Below, piece after piece: positions 8,795 through 47,908 of a DNA stretch of 64,000 bases. The notes below the pieces were generated by a model. The model searched no databases. It was not told the origin of the DNA and saw nothing but the letters and a program-made list of their open reading frames with translations. Numbering within the stretch: the stretch's first letter is position 1; each line of letters opens with the position of its first letter. Made by a program: the position numbers and the translations under genes. The stretch comes from Chloroflexaceae bacterium (GTDB lineage Bacteria; Chloroflexota; Chloroflexia; Chloroflexales; Chloroflexaceae): the NCBI GenBank assembly GCA_028282325.1, contig JANQID010000031.1, positions 62,001 through 126,000 on the forward strand, read 5' to 3'.

Positions 8795-10834
8795 TTAACG
8801 ACCGAACCGGCGCATTGCGCCAGGAAATATTGACGGCCCGACGATGCGTGCCGTCGCCCAGGCTAGAGCCGCATACATGCGTATGCGCAGAATCAGACGT
8901 TGCCAGGGCCAGAACAACCGTCGATCACGCAACGAGGCGAGGTGCAACTGAAATAATAGGCGCATCAATCGATAGTGGGAACGTGCGAGCGCCGTTGGCA
9001 AGTTTGCATCGCCCCATCTCATCAGTGCATCGAGCGCCGCCTGCGCGTCGTTCAAAGCCGCATTCACCCGTTCACGCGGCGCCGCGCGACCTTCCAGTAC
9101 ATAGGTTCGCTGACGCAGTGTTAGAAAGTGTACGGCAAGCGCGCTCAATTCCCACTCGGTGTGCTCGGTTTCCAGGGCCGGAGCGTCGGCGTAAGCATGG
9201 GCGATAATCTCTTCCCAGGCTGGTTGCCCTTCATTCAGCAGCGACATTCCCCGATCAAGCCGTTCGAGACGTCGCTCGCGCAACGATTGCGGCGCGGCCA
9301 TATAGTCCAGCACATCGGCGGGCGGCGCGTAGATCAGATCGCGCAATGCCGGCAATTCCGCCTGCGATGAGGCTTCACCGGGAGCAATGTCCAGCACGTG
9401 ACGCCACGCCGCTTCCAGCGCCGTATACACACGGGTAAGCGCACTAGGCGACCGTGGCGCACGCACCGCAGCATATTGCGCGAGTACTGCACGCGGGTCT
9501 TGATCGAGATTCCACGCCAGCCGGGCGAATAGATAGGCATTGATCGGCGCGGTCAGCCAGGGACGATCTCCGGTCATCAGCGCCTGAACCGTATGCACCC
9601 CGGCGTCGCGATACCAGCGTAGATCGGCGTGAATCACATCGGGTAATGGCGGCAGCGCCGATTTGAACAAGATCCCGTCGAGATAGTATTCAAATAAGCG
9701 ATGTTCAGAAGCGCTTGTCCCATCGCGGTGATCAAAAGCATCGAGGTTGTGATGCAACTGCGCAGCGAAATACGAATTGATCACGCTCTCCGTATCGCCG
9801 ATGCCATAGGCATAGGAACGAGGACGCGGCGCATAGGTCAAGACGACATTCGGATGCGGCTTTACTCGCGTGGGCGGGGACTCGGTATCGTGGTAGGCAA
9901 GGTAGGCCAGACGCGCCGTCGGGTTGATTTCCGCCAGCGCCGCCGCCAGCTCATTCGCTGCCAGCAACGCTTGATCTGATGGCAACAGGTTAACACAATC
10001 TGGGCAATGACACCAGCCGCCCGCACGTAAATCGTCGGGCCATAGGTGATAGACCTGAGCTTCCGGGTAGGCGCGAAAAAATGCCGCACCATAGCGCCGC
10101 AACAGGTCGCGTGTCGTTGCGCCGCTGGGACACAGATTGTGGTCAGGCGTACGACGCACGCCATCGTGGCGAAATGCCTGCGGCGTCGAGCGAAACGCAG
10201 CGCGCGGAATCAGCGTGCTCAGACCGTGGCCGCCCAGTTCGAGCAGCATTCCTCGTTCGCGCAGCAGCGGCAACAACGTCTTGCGCCGCGCTCGCCAGCG
10301 CCGAAGATGACACGCGCCCAGCGCCAGCCTGCGGTCAATTGTATGAATAAAGATGGTATTCAGACGATTGCGCGCCGCCCACAAGATCCACTCCTCGGCA
10401 GTTTCGAGGAAAAAATCGTGACCAATGATCAGGCAGCGTCCTGGTAGCGCCGGTTGGCGGGCTATCGACTCGGTTGGCAGCGTCACCCGATCATAGCGTG
10501 GCAAGCGTTCACCGGCGGGGCCAGGCGCGACCCAGGCGCACCCCAACGCTTCGAGCAGATCGTAGACTGCGTAGAGCAAACCGCGCGGCCCATCGCCGCG
10601 TAGCGTCATCCCTTGCGCGTGCGCTGTCCGCACAAATCCATCTCCGGCGGGGCCGTGGCGCAACGCGATGCGCGGCCCGTCGGCCTGTGCGACGATCGAC
10701 AACGGCGGTGTGCCGATACGTTGCAGGGTCCGCCGCAACTCCTGCGCCGCGAAACGCGCAACCGGATCGTCGCTGATCAATTCGATCAACCATTCAGCAG
10801 AGATCGTATTGTAGTCAGGATATGAAGCGGGCAT
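8795..10834 (-). CDS. DUF4838 (GH67-like) domain protein
   Basis: 679-aa protein. The first 130 residues look like the beta-sandwich found before GH67/GH84-type barrels (RGLLYAVYDLLEALGC). A TIM-barrel-like region follows (WAARNRLNTIFIH, ELGGHGLSTLIP), with a cysteine pair at CHCPDCVNLLP and then LAYLAYHDTESPP typical of DUF4838. The last 200 residues are helical. DUF4838 proteins are assumed to be glycoside hydrolases, but the activity is not settled. No signal peptide is visible, so it may be cytosolic. It is the first intact gene of the minus-strand glycan cluster; 160 bp separate it from the methyltransferase. Confidence 0.72.
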   Translation of the reverse strand: MPASYPDYNTISAEWLIELISDDPVARFAAQELRRTLQRIGTPPLSIVAQADGPRIALRHGPAGDGFVRTAHAQGMTLRGDGPRGLLYAVYDLLEALGCAWVAPGPAGERLPRYDRVTLPTESIARQPALPGRCLIIGHDFFLETAEEWILWAARNRLNTIFIHTIDRRLALGACHLRRWRARRKTLLPLLRERGMLLELGGHGLSTLIPRAAFRSTPQAFRHDGVRRTPDHNLCPSGATTRDLLRRYGAAFFRAYPEAQVYHLWPDDLRAGGWCHCPDCVNLLPSDQALLAANELAAALAEINPTARLAYLAYHDTESPPTRVKPHPNVVLTYAPRPRSYAYGIGDTESVINSYFAAQLHHNLDAFDHRDGTSASEHRLFEYYLDGILFKSALPPLPDVIHADLRWYRDAGVHTVQALMTGDRPWLTAPINAYLFARLAWNLDQDPRAVLAQYAAVRAPRSPSALTRVYTALEAAWRHVLDIAPGEASSQAELPALRDLIYAPPADVLDYMAAPQSLRERRLERLDRGMSLLNEGQPAWEEIIAHAYADAPALETEHTEWELSALAVHFLTLRQRTYVLEGRAAPRERVNAALNDAQAALDALMRWGDANLPTALARSHYRLMRLLFQLHLASLRDRRLFWPWQRLILRIRMYAALAWATARIVGPSIFPGAMRRFGR

Positions 10835-20242: not shown

Positions 20243-22303
20243 TCAGCCCATAAGCGCGAAAATGCCGAAAATCACAACGAGGATTGTCAGAAAGGCTGTG
20301 ATCAGCAGAAAGATTACCCGTTCCCAATTGAGGAAACGCCAGTCGGGGGGGATAACATTCTCAAATCCATAGATTGAGAGACGATACAGCCCTCGTTCAT
20401 CGGCTTCGGCTTCATCATAGTCGCCCAAATCGAACACGATATCCGACAGTGGGATAAAGCTGATCGTGACTTCGCTCAGCGCAACGCGACTGGTTTCGCT
20501 GGTCGCCGATTGGGCTTCGGCGACGAGATCACCGAGGATGGGTATGAGCAGCCATTCGGTGCGAAAGCCATTATCTGCACGCTCGCAATAGATCTGTTCG
20601 GCTTTGCAAGTACGCTGCAACCAGGCTTCATCCAGGTTCGGCAAATCATCGCGAGCCTCCCGCACTTGCGCCGTGCGTCGCCAATGAAACGCCTTCCGCT
20701 GGGTCAACCTGCCAACGCCATCGCAGCGTTCGCAGACAAACCCGCCCCGACCATCGCAATCAGGACACGGGACAAGCACCTTTTCGGTGCGGCGCTTCTT
20801 GGGCTTGCCGGAGCCTTCAACGCTGTCGTTGGCGTCAAGCTGCTGCGCCGTTTGCGGCATAGAGCTCCGTTGCTGACCTTGCTGCGATGGATCGCGCTTA
20901 GCCTGTGCATATGCGCTGCTTGCTTCAATCTCACGAACCACGGTAATGCGTTGGCGGCCTTGGCAGCGCGGACATACCGTTAGCCCTTTGCCATCACACT
21001 TCGGGCACGCAATAACACGCGTTGATCCCGGTATGTTGACCTCTTCGCCCGGCTCATCATTGAACTCATCTGCTTGCGGCAACGTAACTTGCCAACGGTC
21101 CATCTCTGGTCGCGGTGTGAATGCCGCGGCTTTATAATCAGGCGTCTCGCGCAATTCTGGAAGTTCGCGCTGCTCGTAGAGGACCTTGAGGTGATAGAAG
21201 TAGACGTTCCGGCTCTGCACTTTGTGCAAGCGCGCCAGACGCCCCAGCATCCGACGGCGCAGCCACACCTGGCTGGACCACTCGTCAAGCAAGCGTGTTA
21301 TGGTTGTCTCCTGACGCAACTCTTCGGCCCGTTGGCGGGCGCGTTCGATCGGCTCGCGCACGAGGTCGGCGCCCAGCGCCGGCTCGACCATATCGCTAAC
21401 CAGACCATGCGATTCGTACGTCGAATGGCCTGTAATAGTCAATGGCGTCGCCTGCTGCGACGCCATCTGGGTTTGTAGCTGGTGCCGTTCAAGAATGTGT
21501 TCCAATTCGTCTACAGCCGATCGAGCCGAAGAATAGCGCTTCGCCGGATCCACCGCGAGCATAGTCTGAATAACTCGGTCGACATCAATAGGCAGACCTT
21601 TGATCCCGCGTTGGCGCAGCGGTATTGGGGGTTGCGCCTTAAATGAGCGATCCGCAAGATCGGGAGGTTCGTCCCAGGGAAGTTCGCCGCTGAGCATATT
21701 GTAGAGCACAATGCCGAGGCTGTAGATGTCTGAGAGATGGGTCACTGCCGTCGCCGATTTGATATGCTCAGGCGAGAGAAAGCCGGGCGTTCCCATAATC
21801 GCGCTCGTCACGGTAATCGACTGAGCCGGATCGCGCGCGATGCCAAAATCTGTCAGCAGCGCGCGTCGTCGGCTCGATTGCTCGATCAAGATGTTGCCTG
21901 GCGACACGTCCCGATGAATGACGCCAACACGGTGTGCATAGTCAAGCGCATCGGCGATCTGGCGGAAAATATTGATAGCATCGGCCAGCGACAAATTTTG
22001 CTGGCGCTCCAGGAGTTGGCGCAAAGACACGCCGGGAATGTATTCGAGAATTGTGCAGGATAAGCGGTCGTACTGGCCATAGTCGTAGACTTGAACGATG
22101 CAGGGGTGGGTTAAGCGGCTTGCCAGGTTAGCTTCGCGCATGAACCGCTGGATAGTTTCATTGTCATGCGACATCAATATTTTGATTGCGACCTGGCGCT
22201 TTTCCAGGTGGATATGGCGAGCAAGCCAGACTTCGCTGGCGCCGCCGCGTCCAATTTCGCGTTCGAGGGCGTAATTGCCGATACGCTGCGGTAGATTCTG
22301 CAT
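20243..22303 (-). CDS. Ser/Thr kinase with DnaJ-type zinc fingers and C-terminal anchor
   Basis: 686 aa from ATG 22303 (an upstream ATG at 22402 would add 33 weak residues). The kinase domain (10-275) looks active: glycine loop GRGGASEV, Lys41 in VAIK, HRD at 130-132 (HRDVSPGN, the usual Lys replaced by Ser), DFG at 152-154. A linker with RLL.EWS...RNVYFYHL...YE.RE (about 335-390) follows. Four CxxC knuckles (433/436, 444/447, 513/516, 524/527) then follow, each in a CxxC.G-like context as in DnaJ. A conserved domain ending GFENVIPPDW...ERV leads into a membrane helix at 664-684. The kinase should face the cytosol. A degenerate paralogue with the same order lies at 57481. The role is unknown. 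Confidence 0.85.
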   Translation of the reverse strand: MQNLPQRIGNYALEREIGRGGASEVWLARHIHLEKRQVAIKILMSHDNETIQRFMREANLASRLTHPCIVQVYDYGQYDRLSCTILEYIPGVSLRQLLERQQNLSLADAINIFRQIADALDYAHRVGVIHRDVSPGNILIEQSSRRRALLTDFGIARDPAQSITVTSAIMGTPGFLSPEHIKSATAVTHLSDIYSLGIVLYNMLSGELPWDEPPDLADRSFKAQPPIPLRQRGIKGLPIDVDRVIQTMLAVDPAKRYSSARSAVDELEHILERHQLQTQMASQQATPLTITGHSTYESHGLVSDMVEPALGADLVREPIERARQRAEELRQETTITRLLDEWSSQVWLRRRMLGRLARLHKVQSRNVYFYHLKVLYEQRELPELRETPDYKAAAFTPRPEMDRWQVTLPQADEFNDEPGEEVNIPGSTRVIACPKCDGKGLTVCPRCQGRQRITVVREIEASSAYAQAKRDPSQQGQQRSSMPQTAQQLDANDSVEGSGKPKKRRTEKVLVPCPDCDGRGGFVCERCDGVGRLTQRKAFHWRRTAQVREARDDLPNLDEAWLQRTCKAEQIYCERADNGFRTEWLLIPILGDLVAEAQSATSETSRVALSEVTISFIPLSDIVFDLGDYDEAEADERGLYRLSIYGFENVIPPDWRFLNWERVIFLLITAFLTILVVIFGIFALMG

Positions 22304-22445
22304 CTTGCATGCCGCTTGAAACAAGCCGATATCCAGTGGTGAGCGTTGTTCCAACGCTATATATGTTTTCCTGCGCCTAGAATGAGAATTATACCACGCC
22401 AATGTCAGTTTGGGTTGTTGGTTGGTTGGGTGCTTCCAAATGGCG

Positions 22446-25619: not shown

Positions 25620-26297
25620 TTATTCTTTCGGAGAAGTGATCAACCGATATCCAAAGCCGCGTTGCGTGATCAGATAACGTGGATTGGTCGGTTCCGGCTC
25701 GATACGTTGGCGAAGCCGGTATATCAGGGCGTCAATGGCGTTGTAATCAAAGACTTCATAATCCCAAACCACTTCGGCAATATCGTTTTTGCTCACGATC
25801 TGACCGGTACGTTGATACAACAGTTCGAGCAGTTGAAACTCCTTAACCGTCAACGGCGGTTGGAGCAACTCTCCTTTGATGTATACAGCTTTTGCATAAC
25901 TGTCAACAACCAGTTCTTCGCGCTCGCGGGCTTGTTCTTGTTCACGCACCGCGCGTAATACCTCTGGCGGCAGTGCTCCCTTGACAGTGGCTTCCGGATC
26001 TTGGAATGTGATTACTGTGTCTGCGATAATGATTTGATCCTGATGATGCAGCAAACAGCCGTCTTGTATCCGTTCGCCGTTGACGTAGGTTCCATTCGTG
26101 CTTTCTAGGTCGTAAATGGAGAAGCCGTTTTCATCGTGATCGAGGCGCGCATGGCGTCGCGACGCCAGCGAATGAGCGATGATAATGTCATTCGCTCCAT
26201 CGCGTCCGATAGAAATGGCGTCTTTATCCCACTCCATCTCATAAACGGAGCCGTCTGATCGCCGAATTACCAATTTCGGAGCAATTGCGGGCCGCAT
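25620..26297 (-). CDS. FHA domain plus OmpR-type winged helix
   Basis: 225 aa. An FHA domain (about 10-110) has the phosphothreonine-binding pattern ISIGRDGANDI...SLASRRHARL...LESTNGTYVNG. A C-terminal winged helix (about 130-222; LTVKEFQLLELLYQRTGQIVSK, LRQRIEPEP, RGFGYRL) matches the Trans_reg_C DNA-binding domain. It should read a Ser/Thr kinase signal and act on DNA. ATG 26297 is chosen because GGAGGG lies nine bases upstream; ATG 26357 has no such site. The PknB-like kinase gene is divergent across about 160 bp and is the obvious partner. Confidence 0.88.
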   Translation of the reverse strand: MRPAIAPKLVIRRSDGSVYEMEWDKDAISIGRDGANDIIIAHSLASRRHARLDHDENGFSIYDLESTNGTYVNGERIQDGCLLHHQDQIIIADTVITFQDPEATVKGALPPEVLRAVREQEQAREREELVVDSYAKAVYIKGELLQPPLTVKEFQLLELLYQRTGQIVSKNDIAEVVWDYEVFDYNAIDALIYRLRQRIEPEPTNPRYLITQRGFGYRLITSPKE

Positions 26298-26384
26298 ATC
26301 AATAAGCCCTCCGAGCTGCCTTCCAACCGAGCGAGGCTTTGAAACGAAGCGTACCATGTGGTAAAATCGCTGTAGTTTCCCTCG

Positions 26385-26455: not shown

Positions 26456-28144
26456 TTGACACAGCTCGTTGGACGTCGGCTTGGTCGCTACGAGATCCAG
26501 CAAGAGGTTGGGCGTGGCGGGATGGCTCGAGTCTATCGCGCTATTGATCCGCGCCTTCAACGTCCTGTCGCAGTAAAGGTGCTTGCCCCGCAACTTAGCC
26601 TTGATCCTGAATATCTCCAACGCTTCGAGCGGGAAGCTCGCATGGCGGCGAGTCTGGATCATCCGGCTATTATGACGATTTATGATATTGGCGAGCAAGA
26701 CGGGTTGCATTATATTGCGATGGAATTCATCAGCGGGCGTTCGCTGCATCTCATTCTGGAGGAACGAGGCGCACTCGGATTGAGCTATGCGATCGGCATT
26801 CTGGATCCGCTGGGCAAGGCGCTGGATTACGCCCATTCTCAGGGAGCGGTGCATCGCGATGTGAAACCGCACAATGTTATGATCGATGTCGGCGGTCGGG
26901 TGCTGCTCACCGATTTTGGCATCGCGCAGCCAACTGATGCCGATAGCGAGCGGCTGACGCGTACCGGCATTTTTATGGGAACGCCGGAGTATATCTCGCC
27001 TGAGCAAGCCGAGGGAAAACGGTTGGACGGGCGCAGCGATCTCTATTCGTTGGGCATCGTCGCCTACGAAATCATTACCGGGCAAGTGCCGTTCTCAGGC
27101 GCAACGCCGCAGTTGATCGTCGCGCACGCTCAGAATGTGCCGCCGCCGCCTAGCCACATTGATCCGAGTCTTCCAGCCGAACTCGATGTTGTGTTGGAAC
27201 GCGCGTTGGCGAAATTTCCTCTGGAACGCTTCCGCGACGGCAGCGCGCTTGTTGAGGCATTGCGTAGCATAGCCAGGCGTTATGGTATTGCGTCCGCAAC
27301 CCCTTCAAGCATTGCGGAGCTTGCCACGCCACAGCAATCTTCGGCTGGTCAGGCTACCCGGCTGATCAATCGGGGGCGCACTCCTGTGGCGTCTCATCCG
27401 CTCAAAAGCCCTTCTGCGCCGCCTTCCGCGCCGTCGCGCCCGGGCGCGGTGGCGCCTCCCGCCGCACCGCCGCGCCCGCCCGCGGTGTCGTCGCCAGCAA
27501 TGCAATCACCACAACCGGCGCCGGTTGCACCGCAAGCTGGCGGCAACTCCAGCAATCAATCGTTCCTGGGCAAGTTGTGGCTGCCATTGATGGGAGCGTT
27601 GTTTGTGGCGCTGGCGTTGATTGTATTTCAGACGATGGCCAGCGGCCCTGACAATCAATCAGACAGACCTCCATTGCCGCCGCTTCCCACGCCGGGATTG
27701 CCTACGCCAGGCTTTGCCGCCACGTTACCCTTGCCTGCGGCGTCGCCGACAACAGCGGCCACAATGTCACCTTTGCCGATTGCGACGACCGCAACTGGTA
27801 TGCCGGTCCCTACCGAGTCGACGCTTACAAGAACCATCATTAATACGCCCTCGGCGACGCAGATGCCAGCGCTCAGCCCGACATCTGCGCCCTTGCCGCC
27901 AACCATTGCGGCAACTGCAACGCCTGCGGATATTGCAACTTCGCCGCCGGAGTTGCCCACGCCCACGGCGACGCCATCGCTTGCTCCTCCTAAACCGACC
28001 GCAACCGCAACGGTTGAACCTTCTCCGACTGCACTTTTAGGACCGCCAACTATTGTGACCCCACTGATTCCTGAGTCGACCAACAGCAACGATGAGCCGG
28101 GAGCGCCCGAGTCGCCGACCGACACAGCCGATCTGCAACAATGA
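26456..28144 (+). CDS. PknB-like membrane Ser/Thr protein kinase
   Basis: 562 aa. The N-terminal kinase (11-275) is complete: GRGGMARV loop, Lys41 in VAVK, HRDVKPHN, DFG in LLTDFGIAQ, and a GTPEYISPEQA activation segment end. A Pro/Ala-rich juxtamembrane stretch (about 290-370) leads to one membrane helix (about 372-394). A Pro/Thr-rich extracytoplasmic tail of about 165 residues follows, without PASTA repeats. The TTG start at 26456 is supported by AGGAG about 8 bases upstream. It is divergent from the FHA regulator and upstream of the GH57 gene. The tail could be a cell-wall-spanning spacer. Confidence 0.92.
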   Translation: MTQLVGRRLGRYEIQQEVGRGGMARVYRAIDPRLQRPVAVKVLAPQLSLDPEYLQRFEREARMAASLDHPAIMTIYDIGEQDGLHYIAMEFISGRSLHLILEERGALGLSYAIGILDPLGKALDYAHSQGAVHRDVKPHNVMIDVGGRVLLTDFGIAQPTDADSERLTRTGIFMGTPEYISPEQAEGKRLDGRSDLYSLGIVAYEIITGQVPFSGATPQLIVAHAQNVPPPPSHIDPSLPAELDVVLERALAKFPLERFRDGSALVEALRSIARRYGIASATPSSIAELATPQQSSAGQATRLINRGRTPVASHPLKSPSAPPSAPSRPGAVAPPAAPPRPPAVSSPAMQSPQPAPVAPQAGGNSSNQSFLGKLWLPLMGALFVALALIVFQTMASGPDNQSDRPPLPPLPTPGLPTPGFAATLPLPAASPTTAATMSPLPIATTATGMPVPTESTLTRTIINTPSATQMPALSPTSAPLPPTIAATATPADIATSPPELPTPTATPSLAPPKPTATATVEPSPTALLGPPTIVTPLIPESTNSNDEPGAPESPTDTADLQQ

Positions 28145-28217: not shown

Positions 28218-29696
28218 ATGCAGCTCGCATTTGTAATTACAGCCCATTTGCCATATCTGCGCCGCGTTGGGCCTTCGCCATTCGGCGAGGATATGCTTCA
28301 TACCATGATCGCTCAGTCACTGACGCCCCTTCTCAACGTGCTGAGCGATCTGGCTGCCGCGCGGATCAAGCCACGGCTCGCTCTGGCGATTTCGCCGATT
28401 TTGATCGAGCAACTGGCTGATCCGACTGTGCAGAAGCATTTCGTTATCTGGATGGAAGAATGGCTGGCTTCGTATGAACGCGACCTGGATCGCGCCATTG
28501 TGCAGAAGGATGATCACCGCGCATATCTTGCTCGTTTTTACATCGAATGGGGTCAAGGCATTCTGCGGAGCTTTGTCGAGCGCTATGATCGCAATATACC
28601 GGCGGCGTTGCGTGATCTCTGCACACGCGGTATCGTGGAACCATTGGCCGGAACTGCCACCCATGCCTATCTCCCGCTCCTGGGGCGCGAGGAATCGGTC
28701 AGAGCGCAAATTGAACACGGCACATTGCATATTATGCGCCAGTTGGGGCGGCCTCAAGGCTTGTGGCTGCCTGGCTGCGGCTGGCGTCCCGGACTTGAGC
28801 AAATCATCGCTGACACCGATCTGCGCTATGCAATCGTCGACCCAAGCAGCCTGCCGCCGGGCGAATCAGCATCAGCGCGCTGGCTCATCCCGTACCGTCT
28901 GACCGGTTTGTTCTGCGCTGAAGATATCAGTCATTATATCTGGTCGTCTCGGCTTGGTTATGCGGGCGATCCGATCTATCGCGATTCGGCGGTATCGGAC
29001 GGGTATCACGCAATTGGTATTGACGGCCCGACGTCGTACGATCCCTATCACGCATTTCGGCGAGCGCAAGAACATACCGTGCATTTTGTCACGTTGCTTG
29101 TCGCCCAGTCTGAACAACGTTCTGACCAGACGTTAGCATTAATACCGCTGGACGCGCACATTCTTGGTCAACGTTGGTTCGAGGGCGTCGCCTGGATGCA
29201 GGGGGTATTGACGCTTGGTGCCACTCACCCGAAGTTAACGCTGACTACTCCGGGCGAATATCTACGTCACAATAGCCCAAAAGCCCAGGCTTCGCTGCAA
29301 CCGAGTTCGTGGGGAGATGGCGGCGATCATCGAGCCTGGCAAGGATATCGCGCAAAGGAGTATTGGCAGGCGCTCCATCTGGCCGAGGAGCGTTTGATTA
29401 CCGCAGTACGCCAGCGCCCGAATGCACGCGGTGAATTGGAGCGATTGCTGAATCAAGCCGCCCGCGAGCTGCTTCTTGCGCAGAGCAGCGATTGGCCCGA
29501 GCTTCTAAGCGCCGAGACGAATAGCGAGGCTGTTCACGCTTATTGGGCTACCTATCTGGATCGTTGCCACCAGTTGTGTGATCATGCATTTCGACCCGCA
29601 CTCGATAACGCTACGCTGATATTGCTGGAGGAATTGGAAGAGTTGGATGGGCCGTTTCCGCATCTGAACTATCGTGTGTTTCAAAGCGATGCGTAA
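28218..29696 (+). CDS. GH57 branching-enzyme-like protein lacking its nucleophile
   Basis: 492 aa resembling bacterial/archaeal GH57 1,4-alpha-glucan branching enzymes. Motif 1 is HLPY (10-13), motif 2 TATHAYLPLL (147-155), and motif 4 LDAHILGQRWFEG holds the acid Asp312. The C-terminal SSWGDGGDHRAWQG and QSSDWPELL segments are also typical. Motif 3, usually WLPEC, reads WLPGCGW: Gly186 (codon GGC at 28773-28775) replaces the catalytic Glu. The enzyme is therefore probably inactive, or it uses another residue. It follows the PknB-like gene by 73 bp and may be cotranscribed. ATG 28218 gives the family N-terminus. Confidence 0.82.
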   Translation: MQLAFVITAHLPYLRRVGPSPFGEDMLHTMIAQSLTPLLNVLSDLAAARIKPRLALAISPILIEQLADPTVQKHFVIWMEEWLASYERDLDRAIVQKDDHRAYLARFYIEWGQGILRSFVERYDRNIPAALRDLCTRGIVEPLAGTATHAYLPLLGREESVRAQIEHGTLHIMRQLGRPQGLWLPGCGWRPGLEQIIADTDLRYAIVDPSSLPPGESASARWLIPYRLTGLFCAEDISHYIWSSRLGYAGDPIYRDSAVSDGYHAIGIDGPTSYDPYHAFRRAQEHTVHFVTLLVAQSEQRSDQTLALIPLDAHILGQRWFEGVAWMQGVLTLGATHPKLTLTTPGEYLRHNSPKAQASLQPSSWGDGGDHRAWQGYRAKEYWQALHLAEERLITAVRQRPNARGELERLLNQAARELLLAQSSDWPELLSAETNSEAVHAYWATYLDRCHQLCDHAFRPALDNATLILLEELEELDGPFPHLNYRVFQSDA

Positions 29697-38756: not shown

Positions 38757-41700
38757 ATGATGCAATCAGAAACTCCGAAATCTGACCTCGACATCGCGGC
38801 ACTTCGCGAGCAACTGCAATCGATGCGCGGGCAGCTTTACTGGCGCAGTCTTGACTCGATTGCTGATACCGATACCTTCCGTGCGTTCGTTGACCGCGAG
38901 TTCCCGCATGGCGCGTCGGAACTGAACGACCCCGTCAGTCGGCGCACTTTCCTCAAACTGATGGGCGCTTCCATAGCGCTGGCGGGATTGACCGGCTGCA
39001 TTCGCCAGCCCCAGGAGCGTATCGCGCCGTATACCCAGGCGCCGCCGGAAATGGCCCCCGGCGTGCCGTTGTTCTACGCCACTGCGCTGAATTTTGGCGG
39101 GTTTGCGTCGGGCGTGCTGGTGCGCAGCAACGATGGTCGGCCCACAAAAGTGGAAGGCAATCCAAACCATCCGGCGAGTCTGGGCGCCACCGATATCTTC
39201 GCCCAAGCTGAGATTCTGTCGCTCTACGACCCGGATCGCTCGCAAGTGGTTCTGGATAACGGGACGATCAGCACCTGGGATCTCTTCTTGCAGGCGCTCA
39301 CTCCTGTGCTTGGCGTTCAACGAACGATCAATGGCGCGGGGCTGCGCATCCTGAGCCAGACTGTTACCTCACCGACGCTGGCAAGTCAGATTCAAGCAGT
39401 GCTGGAGGCATATCCGGAAGCGAAATGGTATCAGTATGAGCCGGTCAGCCGTGACCATAGCCGCGCCGGGGCCAGACTGGCGTTCGGTGAGGTTGTGGAG
39501 ACGCGCTATGCTTTTGACAAAGCTAAGGTCATCCTCGCACTCGACGCCGATTTCCTGGCCGACGGGCCTGGTCATGTACGCTATGAGCGCGAATTTGCCG
39601 ATGGTCGCCGGGTGCGCGCCAACCGGAGGGAAATGAACCGGCTGTATGTGATCGAGCCGGCGCCGACGATTACCGGCATAACGGCCGATCATCGACTGCC
39701 GTTGCAATCCAGCCGGATCGAGGCGGCAGTGCGTTTCATCGCTCGTGAACTGGGCGTACCGGACGTGGCTGAATCTGCCGAGACGCCGCACGAGGAATGG
39801 CTGGCCGCATTGGCGCGCGATCTACGCGCTAATCCGGGTGCGAGCCTGGTTGTTGCGGGCGAAAGCCAGCCGCCAATTGTGCATGCTCTGGTGCACGCGA
39901 TCAACGCCGAGCTTGACAACATTGGGGTAACGGTCGAATACACCGACCCGGTTGAGGCAAATCCGGTTGACCAGATGGTACGCTTTGCCGATCTAATCGC
40001 CGAAATGCGCTCCGGCCAGATCGACGTGCTGGTCGTTCTCGGCGGCAATCCGGTCTATGACGCCCCCGCCAATCTCAACTTCGCCGAGGCGTTTGCGCAA
40101 GTCAAGTTGCGCATTGTGTGGGGCGCCTATGATGACGAGACCGCCGCGCGGGCCAACTGGCACATCCCGGCGGCGCATGACCTGGAGTCCTGGAGCGACC
40201 TGCGCTCCTACGACGGCACAGTCAGCATTGTGCAACCATTGATACTGCCGTTGTACGAAGGCAAATCGGCCCACGAGGTTGTCGCCGCCTTGCAGGGACG
40301 TACAACAGTTACGGGTTACGATCTGGTGTTGGAACACTGGCGCGACCGTAGTTCGACCGACGATTTCGATACGTTCTGGCGCAAGGCCTTGCACGACGGC
40401 GTCGTCCCGGACACGCGCTTCGAACCAAAGCCGGTGAAGCTGCAAACCGGCTTTGGCGCTCAGCTGCCGACAGCGCCGCCGACTGGTTTGGAAATCGTGT
40501 TCCAGACTGATCCCACGATCTGGGATGGTCGCTATACGAACAACGGCTGGCTGCAAGAACTGCCCAAGCCGATCACCAAACTTACATGGGACAATGCTGC
40601 TCTGGTTGGCCCGTCCACCGCCGAACGATTGGGACTGCGCAACGAGGATGTCGTCGAGCTACGCCTGGATGGGCGCTCGGTGCTGGCTCCGATCTGGATT
40701 ACGCCGGGCGTTGCGCCGGATACGGTCGCCGTACAGTTCGGCTACGGCCGTTCACACACGGGGCGCGTTGGTGAAGGCGCAGGATTTAATGCCTATGCAT
40801 TGCGCACCAGCACGCAACCCTGGTTTGCCGGCAATCTGGAAGTTGTATCGACAGGCAATCGCTATCAACTAGTCTCGACGCAGGATCACGGCTCGATGGA
40901 AGGGCGCGATATTGTGCGCGTCGGCGAGTTCGCGGAGTTCCGCGAAGATCCGAGCTACCTGTTCAAAGAGATCTACCTTGAAGAATACGGCGCCGAGAAA
41001 AAAGAATACGACTCGTTGATGTCCGACTTCACCTATACGGAAAACGCCTGGGGTATGACCATCGATTTGAATGTCTGCACCGGGTGTAATGCCTGCACCG
41101 TTGCATGTCAGGCCGAGAACAACATCCCGATCGTAGGCAAAAGCGAAGTTGGCGTCGGGCGCGAAATGCACTGGATCAGAATCGACCGCTATTTCGCGGG
41201 TGACAATCTCGACAATCCGGCGACTTACGTGCAGCCGATGGCCTGTGTGCACTGCGAAAAGGCGCCGTGTGAACTTGTATGCCCGGTTGCGGCGACTAAC
41301 CATGACCACGAGGGCATCAACAATATGGTCTACAACCGTTGCGTCGGGACCAAATATTGTTCGAACAACTGCCCATACAAAGTGCGTCGGTTCAATTTCT
41401 TGCAATACGTCGATACGACTACGGAAAGCTTGAAACTGATGCGCAATCCTGAAGTTACCGTGCGCAACCGCGGCGTGATGGAAAAGTGTACATACTGCAT
41501 CCAGCGAATCAGCGCTGTGCGGATCGCGTCGAAAAAGGAAGGCAACCGACCGATACGCGACGGTGAGGTGGTGACGGCGTGTCAACAGGTTTGCCCGACT
41601 CAGGCGATTGCTTTTGGTGACACGAAAAACCCGGAGAGTCAGGTCGCGAAGATCAAGACCGAGCCGCTGAACTACACGCTGCTTGATGAGCTAAACACCA

Positions 41701-41768
41701 TTCCGCGCACGAGCTACCTGGCGCGGCTGCGCAATCCAAACCCGGAGCTTGAGGGACAGGGTGAATGA
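38757..41768 (+). CDS. actB: Alternative complex III subunit ActB (molybdopterin-like plus Fe-S)
   Basis: 1003-aa fusion. After a ~60-residue leader comes a Tat-type signal (SRRTFLKLMG at 61-70, Cys81 near its end). Residues about 90-730 follow the molybdopterin-oxidoreductase fold, which in ActB is thought to lack the cofactor. A four-cluster ferredoxin domain of NrfC/PsrB type closes it, with CTGCNACTVAC, CVHCEKAPCELVCP, CVGTKYCSNNCP and CTYC...CQQVCP. In ACIII it takes electrons towards the c-haem subunits at the outer membrane face. It is the first gene of the operon; actC, which normally follows actB, is absent. Confidence 0.93.
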   Translation: MMQSETPKSDLDIAALREQLQSMRGQLYWRSLDSIADTDTFRAFVDREFPHGASELNDPVSRRTFLKLMGASIALAGLTGCIRQPQERIAPYTQAPPEMAPGVPLFYATALNFGGFASGVLVRSNDGRPTKVEGNPNHPASLGATDIFAQAEILSLYDPDRSQVVLDNGTISTWDLFLQALTPVLGVQRTINGAGLRILSQTVTSPTLASQIQAVLEAYPEAKWYQYEPVSRDHSRAGARLAFGEVVETRYAFDKAKVILALDADFLADGPGHVRYEREFADGRRVRANRREMNRLYVIEPAPTITGITADHRLPLQSSRIEAAVRFIARELGVPDVAESAETPHEEWLAALARDLRANPGASLVVAGESQPPIVHALVHAINAELDNIGVTVEYTDPVEANPVDQMVRFADLIAEMRSGQIDVLVVLGGNPVYDAPANLNFAEAFAQVKLRIVWGAYDDETAARANWHIPAAHDLESWSDLRSYDGTVSIVQPLILPLYEGKSAHEVVAALQGRTTVTGYDLVLEHWRDRSSTDDFDTFWRKALHDGVVPDTRFEPKPVKLQTGFGAQLPTAPPTGLEIVFQTDPTIWDGRYTNNGWLQELPKPITKLTWDNAALVGPSTAERLGLRNEDVVELRLDGRSVLAPIWITPGVAPDTVAVQFGYGRSHTGRVGEGAGFNAYALRTSTQPWFAGNLEVVSTGNRYQLVSTQDHGSMEGRDIVRVGEFAEFREDPSYLFKEIYLEEYGAEKKEYDSLMSDFTYTENAWGMTIDLNVCTGCNACTVACQAENNIPIVGKSEVGVGREMHWIRIDRYFAGDNLDNPATYVQPMACVHCEKAPCELVCPVAATNHDHEGINNMVYNRCVGTKYCSNNCPYKVRRFNFLQYVDTTTESLKLMRNPEVTVRNRGVMEKCTYCIQRISAVRIASKKEGNRPIRDGEVVTACQQVCPTQAIAFGDTKNPESQVAKIKTEPLNYTLLDELNTIPRTSYLARLRNPNPELEGQGE

Positions 41769-41769
41769 G

Positions 41770-42396
41770 ATGGCAAAGATGCAGGAACCGCGGCACCATC
41801 GATCATTCAGCATAACGCGCTTGATTCGCTACGGCTGGGTCGCGTTGAGTTTGCTCTTGGTGGCGTGCCATGTTGATATGTACGATCAGCCGCGCTATGA
41901 ACCCTACGAATACAGCGCTTTCTTCGCCGACGGGCGGTCGTCGCGTCCGCCAATCCCCAACACCGTCGCGGTTGGCCAGTTTCAGGATGATCCGCACTTT
42001 CTCACCGGCATGATCGATGATCAATTCGCTACAACGCTGCCGTTTCCGCTCACCGCCGACGTGATGGAACGTGGTCGCCAGCAATACAACGCATTTTGCA
42101 TGTCCTGCCATGGTCTGGTCGGCGACGGCGATGGTCTGATCGCCCAGCGTGGCCCGCTTGTCGTCACCAGTTTTCACAGTGAGCGTCTGCGTAATGTCGA
42201 GGTCGGCTACATATTTGATGTGATTACCAATGGCCTTGGGCGTATGTATAGCCATGCTGCGCGCATTCCGCCTGAAGATCGCTGGGCGATTACGGCCTAT
42301 GTGCGGGCGCTTCAGTTGAGCCAGGATGCCACGCTTGATGACCTGTCGCCTGAAGAACGCGAACGGCTTGTCGGCACGGAATCAGAGGAGCAATAA
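41770..42396 (+). CDS. actE: ACIII monohaem cytochrome c ActE
   Basis: 208-aa lipoprotein cytochrome. The start is ATG 41770, two bases past the actB stop, with GAGGG upstream inside actB. The signal ends in a lipobox (LLLVAC). One CMSCH haem site lies in a cytochrome c domain, and a late Met (RMYSHAARIPPEDRW) probably gives the axial ligand. In known ACIII, ActE passes electrons from the multihaem subunit to soluble carriers. The order actB-actE-actA departs from the seven-gene ACIII operons. Confidence 0.88.
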   Translation: MAKMQEPRHHRSFSITRLIRYGWVALSLLLVACHVDMYDQPRYEPYEYSAFFADGRSSRPPIPNTVAVGQFQDDPHFLTGMIDDQFATTLPFPLTADVMERGRQQYNAFCMSCHGLVGDGDGLIAQRGPLVVTSFHSERLRNVEVGYIFDVITNGLGRMYSHAARIPPEDRWAITAYVRALQLSQDATLDDLSPEERERLVGTESEEQ

Positions 42397-42438
42397 CGTA
42401 GATGTCACGCGTTCAATGCGCGGAGCGGAGTTCTTCGT

Positions 42439-43095
42439 ATGGCGCAGATATTTAAGCCGAATGCCAATGCCATTATACGGGTCAGCATTATCACCGGGAT
42501 TCTGCTGATCATCGGGATCATCCTGACTATGGTCGCGATATATCGTTCGACGTATTACACCGAGGTTGGAGTGGCAAAGGCGCAATCCGTGCCCTTCAGT
42601 CACAAACACCACGTCAGTGAGTTGAAGATCGACTGCCGTTATTGCCATGCCACGGTCGAACGTGCGGCGTTCGCCGGCATCCCAACAACCGACACGTGTA
42701 TGTCCTGCCACTCGCAAATCTGGCTCAACAGCCCATTGCTTGAGACCGTGCGCGAGAGCTATCGAACTGGCGAGCCAGTGCAATGGAGCCGCATCTATGA
42801 TTTGCCCGACTTCGTCTATTTTAACCATAGCATTCATGTCAACAAAGGCGTCGGTTGCAACGTCTGTCACGGTCAGGTCGATCAAATGCAGCTTGTCTCG
42901 CAAGCGCAGCCGCTCTATATGGGCTGGTGTCTGGATTGCCATCGCAACCCGGAGCAGTACGTTCGCCCTCGCGAAGAAGTATTCAATATGGAATGGGCGC
43001 CGCCCGAAAATCAGTTGGAAATGGGACGCCGGCTGGTGCAAGAGTATGAGATCAAGGTGGAGAATCTGTCCGATTGCTACATCTGCCATCGCTAA
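42439..43095 (+). CDS. actA: ACIII pentahaem cytochrome c ActA
   Basis: 218 aa with one N-terminal membrane anchor (about 13-34) and five CxxCH sites at residues 66-70, 87-91, 140-144, 164-168 and 213-217. The anchor holds the haem chain on the periplasmic face, where it should connect quinol oxidation to ActE. The 42-bp gap from actE and the same strand indicate cotranscription. Spare His residues (FSHKHH near 53-58, FNHSIH near 128-133) are likely distal ligands. Confidence 0.92.
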   Translation: MAQIFKPNANAIIRVSIITGILLIIGIILTMVAIYRSTYYTEVGVAKAQSVPFSHKHHVSELKIDCRYCHATVERAAFAGIPTTDTCMSCHSQIWLNSPLLETVRESYRTGEPVQWSRIYDLPDFVYFNHSIHVNKGVGCNVCHGQVDQMQLVSQAQPLYMGWCLDCHRNPEQYVRPREEVFNMEWAPPENQLEMGRRLVQEYEIKVENLSDCYICHR

Positions 43096-43188
43096 TAGAA
43101 GCACAATATGACGATTGATCCGGCTGAAACATGATTTTCGTCGATGAGGCTGACGCTCGTCACAGCTTGTGGAAAAGCAGTACACGCT

Positions 43189-43629
43189 ATGCAAACCGTA
43201 AACGAAAACGATCAACACGAACAAAGCGCACACGACGACGAGATACATCACGAGACACAAGATGCTAAAGTCACACCGTTGATCTGGTCCGGCGTAACTC
43301 TGGTCTTGGTCAGCGTCTTTGCATTTGCGTTCATCGCAGGGATTATGATCTTTCTGGGTCGTGGTGATGCCGCCCCCAGCGCGCTGACCGGCGCACCGCC
43401 CGTTGCAGCGCCGACCCGCCTGCCGCCCGAACCATTGCTGCAGCAGGAGCCAGTGGCTGATGGCGACCGGATTATCGCCGAACAACAGGCCGTGCTGAAC
43501 AGCTACGGCTGGGTCGATCAGTTTGCCGGGAAGGTGCATATACCTATCGAACGGGCGATGGAGCTTGTCGTTGAACAAGGCGTAGAAGCTTCGCAAGCGA
43601 CCGACGCTACGCCGAGGCCGCAACCATAA
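43189..43629 (+). CDS. actG: ActG-like small membrane protein
   Basis: 146 aa from ATG 43189. A His/Asp/Glu-rich N-terminus (about 1-30) precedes one membrane helix (about 34-57), a Pro-rich stretch, and a C-terminal block NSYGWVDQFAGKVHIPIERAMELV. That block is the conserved part of small proteins next to SCO/oxidase genes and of ActG. Its place between actA and SCO1 matches my memory of the Chloroflexus respiratory cluster. ATG 43144 would add 15 poorly fitting residues. It may link ACIII to the oxidase or aid assembly. Confidence 0.7.
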   Translation: MQTVNENDQHEQSAHDDEIHHETQDAKVTPLIWSGVTLVLVSVFAFAFIAGIMIFLGRGDAAPSALTGAPPVAAPTRLPPEPLLQQEPVADGDRIIAEQQAVLNSYGWVDQFAGKVHIPIERAMELVVEQGVEASQATDATPRPQP

Positions 43630-43668
43630 GATTGCCTGACTGGCCCCGGCCAATTACGAGATTGACGT

Positions 43669-44523
43669 ATGAAGCCAATGCCGCCCATCACAATACGAAT
43701 ATGGCGCCGCCTCAGCCTGATGGCTTTGCTTGCACTGTGCGTGATCGCATTGACGCCCGCGGCGCCAATTCGAGCGCAGGATGAGCAACCCGACCCCGTA
43801 CGCGACGTTGGGTTTGACCAGTTGCTTGATCAGTCCGTTCCGTTGGATGCGCTATTCACGGATGAAGAAGGGCGAACCATTCCGCTGCGCGACTTCTTTG
43901 GCGAGAAGCCGGTCGTTCTGGCGCTTGGATACTACGAATGCCCGATGCTCTGCTCCCTTGTGCGCGAGGGTATGCTTCAGAGCTTCAGCCAGCTCGATTT
44001 CACCGTTGGCGATGAGTTTGAAGTCGTCAATGTGAGCATCGATCCGGGAGAGACGCCGATGATCGCCGCTGCGCAGAAAGCGATCTACGTCGAGCGCTAT
44101 GGACGACCCGGCGGAGGAGACGGCTGGCATTTCCTGACCGGCGACCAGGAAGCGATTGACCGGTTGGCGAGCGCGGTCGGCTTCCGCTATGTGTATGACG
44201 CTGAGATTGACCAGTACGCCCATCCCAGCGGCATCATCGTGCTGACGCCGCTGGGCAAGATCGCACGCTATTTTTATGGCATAGAGTTTGATCTGAAAGA
44301 CTTGCGCCTGGGTCTGGTAGAGGCTTCGGAAAACAAGATTGGTACGCCGGTCGATCAATTTCTGCTGTTGTGCTATCACTACGACCCGGCGACAGGAACC
44401 TATACTGGCCTTATTATGACGATCACCCGTGTGGTCGGCGCGCTTACCATTCTGATTTTAGGCGGCGCGCTGTTTATGCTGAATCGCCGTCATCGCCGGG
44501 GGATTGCGGGAACTGCTGGTTAA
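43669..44523 (+). CDS. SCO1/SenC copper chaperone
   Basis: 284 aa. A signal anchor (about 13-36) precedes a thioredoxin-fold domain with the copper-binding CPMLC (about 92-96) and the distant His in YAHPSG. A C-terminal membrane helix (about 248-268) is an addition to the usual SCO plan. SCO proteins load or reduce the CuA centre of cytochrome oxidase subunit II, the next gene (coxB, 37 bp on). Confidence 0.92.
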   Translation: MKPMPPITIRIWRRLSLMALLALCVIALTPAAPIRAQDEQPDPVRDVGFDQLLDQSVPLDALFTDEEGRTIPLRDFFGEKPVVLALGYYECPMLCSLVREGMLQSFSQLDFTVGDEFEVVNVSIDPGETPMIAAAQKAIYVERYGRPGGGDGWHFLTGDQEAIDRLASAVGFRYVYDAEIDQYAHPSGIIVLTPLGKIARYFYGIEFDLKDLRLGLVEASENKIGTPVDQFLLLCYHYDPATGTYTGLIMTITRVVGALTILILGGALFMLNRRHRRGIAGTAG

Positions 44524-44560
44524 CGAATTCCATACTTCCAGATACGTATAGGAAACGCCT

Positions 44561-45562
44561 ATGTGGGGATTTCCATTATTTCCCGAACAAGCCTCAACCG
44601 TTGCCGGACAGATTGACCTGCTCTATTTTGCGCTGGTTGGATTAAGCCTGATTTTTGCCGGCATACTGCCGTTTGTTGTGCTCTACCTGATTGTTCGGTA
44701 TCACCGCAGTATGAAGGCCGATCGCTCCAACCCAATCAACAGTAGCTTGAAACTGGAACTGACCTGGTCGATCATTCCGTTCATCCTGTCGATGGGCGTC
44801 TTTTTCTGGTCTACATTTCTCTTTTTTCAGATAAACGCAGACCCAGACGATCCTCTCGAAATTTATGTGATCGGCAAACAATGGATGTGGCATTTGCAGC
44901 ATCCCAACGGCAAGCGTGAGAACAACGAATTGCACGTGCCCGTAGGTCAGCCGATCAAGCTGATTATGACATCGCAAGACGTGATCCACAGCTTCTACAT
45001 TCCGGCGTTTCGGCTCAAGAAGGACGTTGTGCCCGGTCGTTACACCACAATGTGGTTCGAGCCGACCAAAACCGGCGAGTATCACCTGTTCTGCGCCGAG
45101 TATTGCGGCACTGAGCACTCGGCGATGATCGGGCGTGTGGTGGTGCTGCCGCTGCCCGACTATCAACGCTGGCTGACGACCGAAGAACCGGCTATCTTGC
45201 CGGATGGCTCGACGATCTCCACAGGCGTAAGCAGCGACTCCGGCGGGTCGATGGCCGAAATCGGGGCGCAAGTCTTCCAGCAGCAGGGCTGTGTCAGTTG
45301 TCACCGTACCGATTCGGCGGCGCGCGCGCCTGTACTCAACAACATCTTTGGCAAACCGACTTCGCTTGCCAGCGGCGAGACGCTAACGGTTGATGAGGAG
45401 TATCTGCGCGAGTCGATCCTACGACCGCAAGCCAAAATTACCGTGGGCTACGGTCCGATTATGCCAACATTTGAGGGTCAACTCACCGAGGATCAGGTTT
45501 TGCAACTGATTGCCTATATCAAATCGCTCAGCGATGTTGATGCCAACGAGGAAAATCAATGA
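44561..45562 (+). CDS. coxB: Cytochrome c oxidase subunit II, caa3 type
   Basis: 333 aa. Two N-terminal membrane helices (about 25-50 and 70-92) lead to the cupredoxin domain with CuA ligands in HSFYIPAF and [15 protein letters not shown] fused C-terminal cytochrome c carries CVSCH with a late Met in PIMPTFEG. The fusion lets the oxidase take electrons straight from ActE or a small carrier. The start ATG of coxA overlaps its stop (ATGA). Confidence 0.95.
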
Positions 45563-47214
45563 GCACAACTTCTCCTGTTGCATCTTTTTACAATGATCAT
45601 AGCAGGACAATGATCGACTGGCTGAAGTCCTGGTTTCTGACCATTGATCATAAGCGAATCGCTATCCTGTATTTGATCACCATCAACATATTCTTCCTGC
45701 TCGGCGGCGCTGCGGCGACGGTATTGCGCGCCGAATTGGTTACGCCCCAGGCTGATCTCGTGCAATCCGACACCTACAATAAGCTGTTCACATTGCATGG
45801 CGTCATTATGATTTTCTTCTTCCTGGTTCCATCCATTCCCGCGGTGCTAGGAAACTTTCTGCTTCCGCTGATGCTTGGCGCGAAAGACCTCGCCTTCCCA
45901 CGCCTGAATCTGCTGAGTTGGTATGTCTTCTTTATCGGCGGCCTGTTCGCGCTGGCGGCGACCTCGCTGGGCGGCGTCGATACAGGCTGGACGTTTTACA
46001 CGCCGTATAGCAGCACCTATGCCAACTCGAATGTCATTCTTACGGCGACGGGCATCTTCATTATGGGCTTTTCGTCGATTTTGACCGGCATCAATTTCAT
46101 TGTGACGATCCACAAAATGCGCGCACCTGGTCTAACCTGGTTTCGTCTGCCGCTGTTTGTCTGGGCCAACTATGCTACCAGCATCATCCAGGTGCTGGCG
46201 ACGCCCGTACTGGGCGTGTCGATCGCATTGGTAGCCGTTGAGCGGTTGCTCGGCGTGGGTATCTTCGATCCGGCGTTGGGCGGCGATCCGCTGTTGTTTC
46301 AGCATCTCTTCTGGTTCTATTCTCATCCGGCGGTCTATATCATGATTCTGCCTGCGATGGGAGTGATCAGCGAGCTCATTTCGTGTTATTCACGCAAACG
46401 CGTTTTTGGCTACGAATTCATCGCCCTCTCCAGCATCGCCATCGCAGTGATCGGCTTCTTTGTGTGGGGCCATCATATGTTCGTCAGCAGCCAGTCGGTC
46501 TATTCCGGGCTGGTCTTCTCATTCTTAAGCTACCTGGTCGCTATTCCGTCGGCGATCAAGGTCTTCAACTGGACGGCCACGCTCTACAAAGGTTCGATTT
46601 CCTACAGCACGCCGATGCTCTATGCGATGGGCTTTATGGGCGTGTTTGTCATCGGCGGCTTGACCGGGCTGTTCCTGGCGGCTTCGGCGCTTGATGTGCA
46701 TGTTCACGATACCTATTTTGTCGTCGCTCACTTCCACTACATTATGGTCGGCGGCGCGATTATGGCCTACCTGGGCGGTCTTCATTACTGGTGGCCCAAA
46801 ATCACCGGTCGTCTCTATTCGGAAATCTGGGGGCGTCTCTCGGCGTTGATTATCTTCGTCGGCTTCAATCTGACATTCTTTCCCCAATTCTTCCTTGGCT
46901 ATCTGGGGATGCCGCGTCGTTACCATGTGTATCCCGAAGAATTCCAGGTGCTCCATGTTCTGTCGAGCGCCGGTTCGACGATCCTGGGCATTGGGTATAT
47001 GATCCCGATCATCTATCTGCTGGTTTCGCTCCGCTATGGCGAAATCGCCAAATCGAATCCGTGGCGCGCGAAAGGGTTGGAATGGCAGACGACCTCGCCG
47101 CCGCCGACCGAGAACTTTGAGCACACGCCGATCGTGACCGAAGAGGCCTACGCTTATCCACCGGAGGAACCCGAACGTGACGCAGCATCATACCGCCCTG
47201 GCTCACCACTTTGA
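45559..47214 (+). CDS. coxA: Cytochrome c oxidase subunit I
   Basis: 551-aa haem-copper oxidase core with 12 helices. Haem a ligand: [10 protein letters not shown]. CuB and crosslinked Tyr: [14 protein letters not shown]. Other CuB His: WGHHMFV. Haem a/a3 His pair: [13 protein letters not shown]. The Glu of classic A1 oxidases (HPEVY) is replaced (HPAVY) with YS just before, marking the A2 subfamily that uses a Tyr-Ser pair in the D channel. It pumps protons while reducing oxygen to water. Confidence 0.96.
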
Positions 47215-47908
47215 CACGCCTGAGCAGCAGAAAGAGGCTGCGACGCTGGGAATGTGGCTGTTCCTGGCAACCGAAATTATGCTTTTCGGTGGTATTTTTA
47301 TGGGCTACATCGTCTATCGTTGGGCCTATCCGGAGGTGTTTTCCGCAGGCAGCCATCACCTGAATCTGGCGCTCGGCACTGTGAATACTCTGATTCTGCT
47401 GTGCAGCAGCCTGACGGTTGCGCTAGCTGTACATGCTGCCGAAGAAGGCAAGCGTCGCGTCATAGTGAATCTGCTGCTGGCGACGATTGTGCTGGGGGCA
47501 GTTTTCCTCGGCATCAAAGGCGTCGAATATTACCAGAAGTTTGCCGAGTGTTGGGCGCCGGCGTCTGAAGAGTGTTTGGTTCCAGGGCGATCATTCTTCT
47601 ACCCGACCGAGACCACTCATACCGAGGGCGCTGCATCCGCAGAAAGCCCGGTTTCGGAAGCGGCTGTACACTCCGAAACTGCGTCCCGGCCATACCAGAT
47701 CTTTTTCCTGCTCTACTTTATTGCCACCGGTTTACATGCCTTTCATATGGTTGTTGGCATCAGCCTGATGGGAGTGATCGTATGGATGGCGAACCGCGGT
47801 CGTTTTTCAGCCGAGTATTACACGCCGGTTGAGATGTCGGGTTTGTACTGGCACTTGATTGATATTATCTGGGTATTTCTCTTCCCGTTATTTTATCTTA
47901 TCCACTAA
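47177..47908 (+). CDS. coxC: Cytochrome c oxidase subunit III
   Basis: 243 aa with about five membrane helices ([18 protein letters not shown] first). The Glu in the LFLATEIM helix and [10 protein letters not shown] are family marks. The GTG start overlaps coxA by 38 bases and has GGAGG nine bases upstream. A hydrophilic insert of about 35 residues (TETTHTEG...HSETASRP) lies between helices near 145-175. Confidence 0.92.

Follow-up and report, generated by a model that had tools for sequence, protein, structure and literature searches.

A 64,000-nucleotide stretch of a Chloroflexaceae bacterium genome (the window) encodes a GH57 branching-enzyme-like protein, here termed GH57L, that carries glycine in place of the catalytic glutamate nucleophile. 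As the nucleophile and several supporting residues have gone, loss of catalysis is very likely, and we consider it highly probable that GH57L is non-catalytic as a GH57 transferase. Purifying selection and an intact fold argue that the protein probably persists in a binding or regulatory capacity; a specific part in Ser/Thr phospho-signalling is a more tentative proposal, which we put at somewhat under an even chance. An initial annotation had proposed a pseudoenzyme, and this is now strongly supported by clade-wide loss of the nucleophile in the window’s own family, loss of other catalytic features, purifying selection and the presence of an intact GH13 GlgB in the same genome. Features of the locus are listed in Table 1.

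Table 1. Features of the GH57L locus, numbered from the first nucleotide of the window.
Feature	Position	Strand	Remarks
FHA + winged-helix (Trans_reg_C) regulator	25620..26357	-	Divergent, beside kinase; conserved neighbour
PknB-like Ser/Thr protein kinase	26456..28144	+	Pro/Thr-rich C-terminal tail; 73 nt upstream of GH57L; Pfam Pkinase 5.7e-44
GH57L, GH57 branching-enzyme-like pseudoenzyme	28218..29696	+	492 aa; Pfam, PDB relatives; start agrees with orthologues
CSR-3 motif WLPGCGW, residues 183-189	28764..28784	+	Aligned to WLPECAY of TK1436
Codon GGC, Gly186	28773..28775	+	Position of nucleophile Glu183 (TK1436), by alignment
Shortened catalytic loop, residues ~209-221	28842..28880	+	~5 residues against 20 in TK1436 (226-245); no Tyr233 equivalent
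Trp242 (TK1436 W270), retained cleft aromatic	28941..28943	+	24/27 orthologues
Asp312, acid/base Asp354 position	29151..29153	+	Of 27 orthologues, 24 have Asp, two Asn and one His
His314, replacing motif-4 Glu (TK1436 E356)	29157..29159	+	By alignment
Trp365 (TK1436 W407), retained cleft aromatic	29310..29312	+	20/27 orthologues
Trp374 (TK1436 W416), retained cleft aromatic	29337..29339	+	25/27 orthologues

Fold and active site of GH57L

Translation of the GH57L reading frame revealed no internal stops. Pfam and Foldseek together place the protein within GH57 by homology and fold: matches to Glyco_hydro_57 (PF03065; 69 bits, cut-off 21.2) and BE_C (79 bits) both exceeded their cut-offs, and phmmer searches of the PDB returned GH57 branching enzymes with E-values of ~1e-62 to 1e-45. 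Scores against the NCBIfam branching-enzyme equivalogs were 248 and 236 bits, under cut-offs of 920 and 1000 that a canonical relative (L054) also fails to reach, so that this comparison says little. The AlphaFold2 model, built with 58 homologues, had a mean pLDDT of 94.6 and a pTM of 0.93, and its best PDB matches according to Foldseek—1ufa, 3p0b, 5wu7, 3n8t and 2b5d, with query TM-scores of 0.87–0.92—were all GH57 branching enzymes; the model shows no disruption of either the barrel or the helical domain.

The initial annotation had reported a WLPGCGW version of motif 3, with a GGC glycine codon two bases away from a glutamate codon at the nucleophile position, and both motif and coordinates proved correct. 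When GH57L was aligned with characterised GH57 enzymes, Gly186 fell exactly on nucleophile Glu183 of TK1436 (3n8t) and Asp312 on Asp354. Motif 3 aligned without gaps, ruling out a nucleophile displaced elsewhere through misalignment. GH57 glycogen branching enzymes (EC 2.4.1.18) require a CSR-3 nucleophile glutamate that GH57L lacks; a retaining GH57 enzyme without its nucleophile cannot form the glycosyl-enzyme intermediate, so that double displacement would be blocked.

The remaining motifs had been described as kept. This holds for the acid/base aspartate of CSR-4, which is itself gone from three of the 27 orthologues (L015, L025 and L027), but not for the motif-4 glutamate, the polarizing histidine, the active-site arginine or the tyrosine-bearing catalytic loop. 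Comparison with a published list of active-site residues, in TK1436 numbering (PMC6616209), showed that the polarizer H10 is replaced by T8, R261 by C233 and E356 by H314, while H12 (H10 in GH57L), D354 (D312) and S466/D467 (S424/D425) are retained. A catalytic loop with a tip tyrosine, missing from GH57L, is not a universal trait, as AmyC has no such loop. Several cleft aromatics have also been lost (W361 to R319, W22 to S20, W28 to M26, F285 to S257 and F470 to E428), which counts against glucan binding, although three cleft tryptophans are mostly kept; within the family, W407 and even W270 erode in genus g4.

Distribution, phylogeny and selection

Homologues were compared across families, with f1 denoting the window’s own family and f4 its sister family in the same order. 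We take genomes G007, G006, G064 and G042 to be Chloroflexus aurantiacus, C. aggregans, Roseiflexus RS-1 and Herpetosiphon aurantiacus, respectively, and f1 then to be Chloroflexaceae; the chromosome bearing L077 and L036 is presumably that of Roseiflexus sp. RS-1. Named records matching f1 loci were Chloroflexi bacterium OHK40 and another Chloroflexota MAG.

GH57L orthologues occur in 27 of 41 f1 genomes, one apiece (in one genome, a contig end carries an additional incomplete copy), and were not detectable in the other 14. The nucleophile position holds glycine in 25 orthologues, alanine in one and asparagine in one; because glutamate is absent from all 27, Gly186 can be attributed neither to sequencing error nor to a recent mutation. 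Every full-length f1 orthologue has an open frame, and around 90 positions—some of them family-specific—are invariant across the 27 proteins, over a family depth of 44–57% identity.

By contrast, f4 homologues at 46–53% identity keep the glutamate (WLPECGF, WLPECGY or WLAECAY), and among them L074–L078 have the same trimmed loop as GH57L, with no insert after motif 3. Other short homologues carry WLPSGG or WLPGGG in f3, WSAED or WAADD in f2 and WPPSG or WPPAQ in part of f4, and canonical enzymes of 570–700 residues with WLPECAY or WLPECGY were found in f2, f3, f5, f6, f12 and f14. Short paralogues without the GH57 nucleophile include L043, L045, L046 and L048 from f3 and L041 and L042 from f4, with the motifs WLPSGG, WLPAGG, WLPGGG, WPPSGA and WPPAQD.

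A phylogeny was inferred using IQ-TREE, with an outgroup of 16 distant canonical enzymes, all bearing the glutamate, drawn from a contig scan limited to conserved peptide patterns. The f1 proteins formed a single clade (support 100/100), joined by f4 (100/99); the short f2 and f3 proteins lay beside this pair (99/95), and the canonical enzymes were separated from all of these by a branch with 100/99 support. At least four changes are needed to explain the glutamate state on this tree. The persistence of glutamate in a sister family at 46–53% identity places the loss of catalysis in the f1 ancestor; a similar loss appears to have occurred elsewhere in the short lineage too, where the nucleophile losses in the f3 and f4 short paralogues are apparently independent of that in f1.

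Pairwise dN/dS for GH57L ranged from 0.04 to 0.18 in the 15 close orthologue pairs with computable dS, much like the 0.07–0.14 of glutamate-bearing f4 homologues and modestly higher than the 0.01–0.14 of the neighbouring AroA, GalE and kinase genes. Identities of 75–87% were recorded for GH57L where the kinase showed 89–93%. GH57L is evidently under purifying selection, yet evolves faster than its neighbours.

Gene context and possible function

The PknB-like kinase claimed to lie upstream of GH57L is indeed there, on the same strand, scoring 336 bits against the NCBIfam PknB_PASTA_kin model (under the cut-off of 450). The order AroA, FHA regulator, kinase, GH57L recurs as a block in f1: in ten of 11 testable loci the kinase and GH57L show an operon-like adjacency (no more than 90 nt), with the kinase stop falling between -87 and +13 nt relative to the GH57L start, and in the remaining locus a gap of 769 nt separates them. 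Scans for promoters and terminators found nothing exceeding shuffled sequences. The suggested functional link to the kinase stands only in part: the operon-like order is conserved in f1, but the two genes are not lost together, the kinase being retained without GH57L in L175, L176, L178 and L182 (at least four of the 14 genomes without GH57L), and the glutamate-bearing f4 homologues sit in other contexts, with no adjoining kinase. Because the kinase persists where GH57L is absent, it can do without GH57L and has roles beyond it, and because it belongs to a wider syntenic block with AroA and the FHA regulator, adjacency to it is by itself weak evidence.

A second association was seen in f2 (Herpetosiphon-type), where all three fetched loci (L050, L051 and L052), with WSAED or WAADD in the nucleophile region, contain an apparent operon of a DUF2270 membrane protein, a short GH57 protein and a PP2C phosphatase, the PP2C start codon in L051 lying 3 nt past the GH57 stop. 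As two f2 genomes hold just 7 and 8 PP2C genes, this adjacency is unlikely to be a chance outcome, albeit for a pattern spotted post hoc. DUF2270 also accompanies the short paralogue in part of f4; it was not found in the window’s own genome or in 40 of 41 f1 genomes, which rules it out as an ancestral neighbour explaining the f1 context.

Elsewhere in the window, a protein-kinase-like gene (57481-59382, + strand) also encodes a zinc finger of the DnaJ type (CxxCxGxG) and ends in a hydrophobic segment, all in one fusion; its kinase part looks inactive, with histidine for the VAIK lysine and GMG for DFG, although HRD is kept. The motifs are intact in a paralogue at 20243-22402 (- strand). Translations (and Pfam, for the first gene only) suggest that 38757-47908 (+ strand) resembles an alternative complex III and cytochrome c oxidase set, comprising a fused Mo/Fe-S protein, c-type cytochromes, a SCO-like protein and oxidase subunits I–III. 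A DUF4838 protein at 8795-10834 (- strand) is possibly glycoside-hydrolase-like.

A second intact GH57 branching enzyme was sought in the genome and not found: the only other candidates were a DUF3536-type GH57 protein with WLPETAV (contig C51, from 61840) and GH13 GlgB. The latter is intact on the same contig (TIGR01515, 888 bits; NF003811, 969 bits), so glucan branching need not rely on GH57L, and the GlgB model was matched in all 41 f1 genomes, above cut-off in 38. Locus L079 (4622-19499, contig C51) holds a GlgE-type glycogen/trehalose cluster encoding a GlgX-like debranching enzyme, an esterase-like protein, GlgE, a TreS-like protein, GlgB, a TreZ-like protein and GH57-DUF3536. Searches for GlgA glycogen synthase in this genome gave weak GT5-domain matches only, compatible with a GlgE route. 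GH57L lies apart from this cluster, on contig C56.

Since these genes adjoin a kinase in f1 and a phosphatase in f2, Ser/Thr phospho-signalling would be the leading setting for GH57L, and a phospho-regulated, glucan-binding role is a plausible proposal. Glucan binding itself is putative, with only the retained tryptophans pointing to it. The comparisons show that a short, loop-trimmed, branching-enzyme-like GH57 lineage arose in the Chloroflexales and that, in the f1 ancestor, the nucleophile changed from glutamate to glycine and other catalytic features deteriorated, while purifying selection held the fold. Lacking its nucleophile, GH57L would have no branching or amylase activity; it would be kept for binding, with alpha-glucan or an enzyme of glycogen metabolism as the likeliest partner, via the remaining cleft tryptophans and the helical C-domain, and might act as an adaptor or regulator, phosphorylated on Ser/Thr by the co-encoded PknB-like kinase. 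Taken as a whole, this picture of a cytoplasmic GH57-derived pseudoenzyme serving as a binding adaptor or regulator under the co-encoded kinase seems to us about evenly balanced between right and wrong. A broader generalisation—that in the Chloroflexales the GH57 branching-enzyme fold has given up catalysis to serve a Ser/Thr phospho-signalling module as its alpha-glucan sensor or adaptor, linked to a kinase in one family and PP2C in another and coupling glycogen state to regulation—is doubtful.

Three alternatives were weighed against this reading. GH57L might be an allosteric or structural subunit of intact GlgB, GlgE or the DUF3536-type GH57, with kinase adjacency incidental: possible partners are encoded in the genome, the retained tryptophans could bind glucan and the plant protein ISA2, which acts with ISA1, provides a precedent for a non-catalytic alpha-glucan enzyme (PMC12510319). 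However, GH57L is not co-located with the glycogen cluster and GlgB also occurs in relatives without GH57L, and we regard this as unlikely. It is quite unlikely that GH57L is simply a branching-enzyme relic decaying under relaxed constraint, with no present function; absence from 14 f1 genomes, including losses beside a retained kinase, its faster divergence than the kinase and the additional loss of the aspartate in three members would fit such decay, but dN/dS values far under 1, open frames in all full-length orthologues, the many invariant positions and retention across the depth of the family do not. Least probable by far is a still-active enzyme of altered chemistry—a weak hydrolase, lyase or transferase using Asp312 with another group (candidates include His314 and, in WFEG, the invariant Glu322) or an exogenous or substrate-assisted nucleophile—for, despite a fully folded barrel in the model, an aspartate kept in most orthologues and a glycine at position 186 so well conserved, while the adjacent residue drifts, as to hint at constraint, His314 is variable (G, R, A or D elsewhere), the acid aspartate is gone in three members, the polarizing histidine and active-site arginine are absent and no new f1-invariant carboxylate occurs near motifs 3 or 4.

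Comparison with known systems

Regarded as a probable binding or regulatory pseudoenzyme, GH57L resembles the branching enzymes TK1436 and TT1467 (3n8t, 1ufa, 3p0b) in fold (TM 0.87–0.90), BE_C domain, acid aspartate and the cleft tryptophans W270, W407 and W416, but differs in lacking the nucleophile glutamate, polarizing His10, E356, R261 and the tyrosine-bearing catalytic loop. It shares the same fold, with a short catalytic loop and no tip tyrosine, with AmyC from Thermotoga maritima (2b5d), which nevertheless has both glutamate and aspartate and shows branching activity with a tendency to hydrolysis (PMC6616209). Alpha-1,4-transglycosylation has likewise been reported for loop-less GH57 branching enzymes (PMC10346327); as loss of the loop alone leaves activity, the missing glutamate is the key point. 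Plant ISA2 offers a functional analogy only: it too is a paralogue of an alpha-glucan enzyme that has lost its nucleophile and is still under selection, but it is a eukaryotic GH13 protein that binds an active paralogue (PMC12510319).

Close counterparts are the short f4 homologues L074–L078, which, for all their similarity to GH57L in sequence and loop architecture, have WLPECGF and do not lie beside the kinase. The phylogenetically placed loss in f1, together with glutamate-bearing sisters at ~50% identity, provides a clean before-and-after pair for the ‘like’ proteins of amylolytic families.

A full-text literature search combining Chloroflexus, GH57 and branching enzyme returned one unrelated survey. 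Inactive branching-enzyme lookalikes are already known: 60 bacterial ‘GBE-like’ GH57 sequences without catalytic residues, with a listed length of 520 aa, have been described (Martinovicova & Janecek, 2018; PMC6037648), and GH57L can be likened to them by description. For that set, neither a function nor the genomic neighbourhood nor a history at family level was given; the gene-context clue for GH57L is new, and its kinase and phosphatase neighbours represent the first concrete functional lead found for GBE-like proteins.
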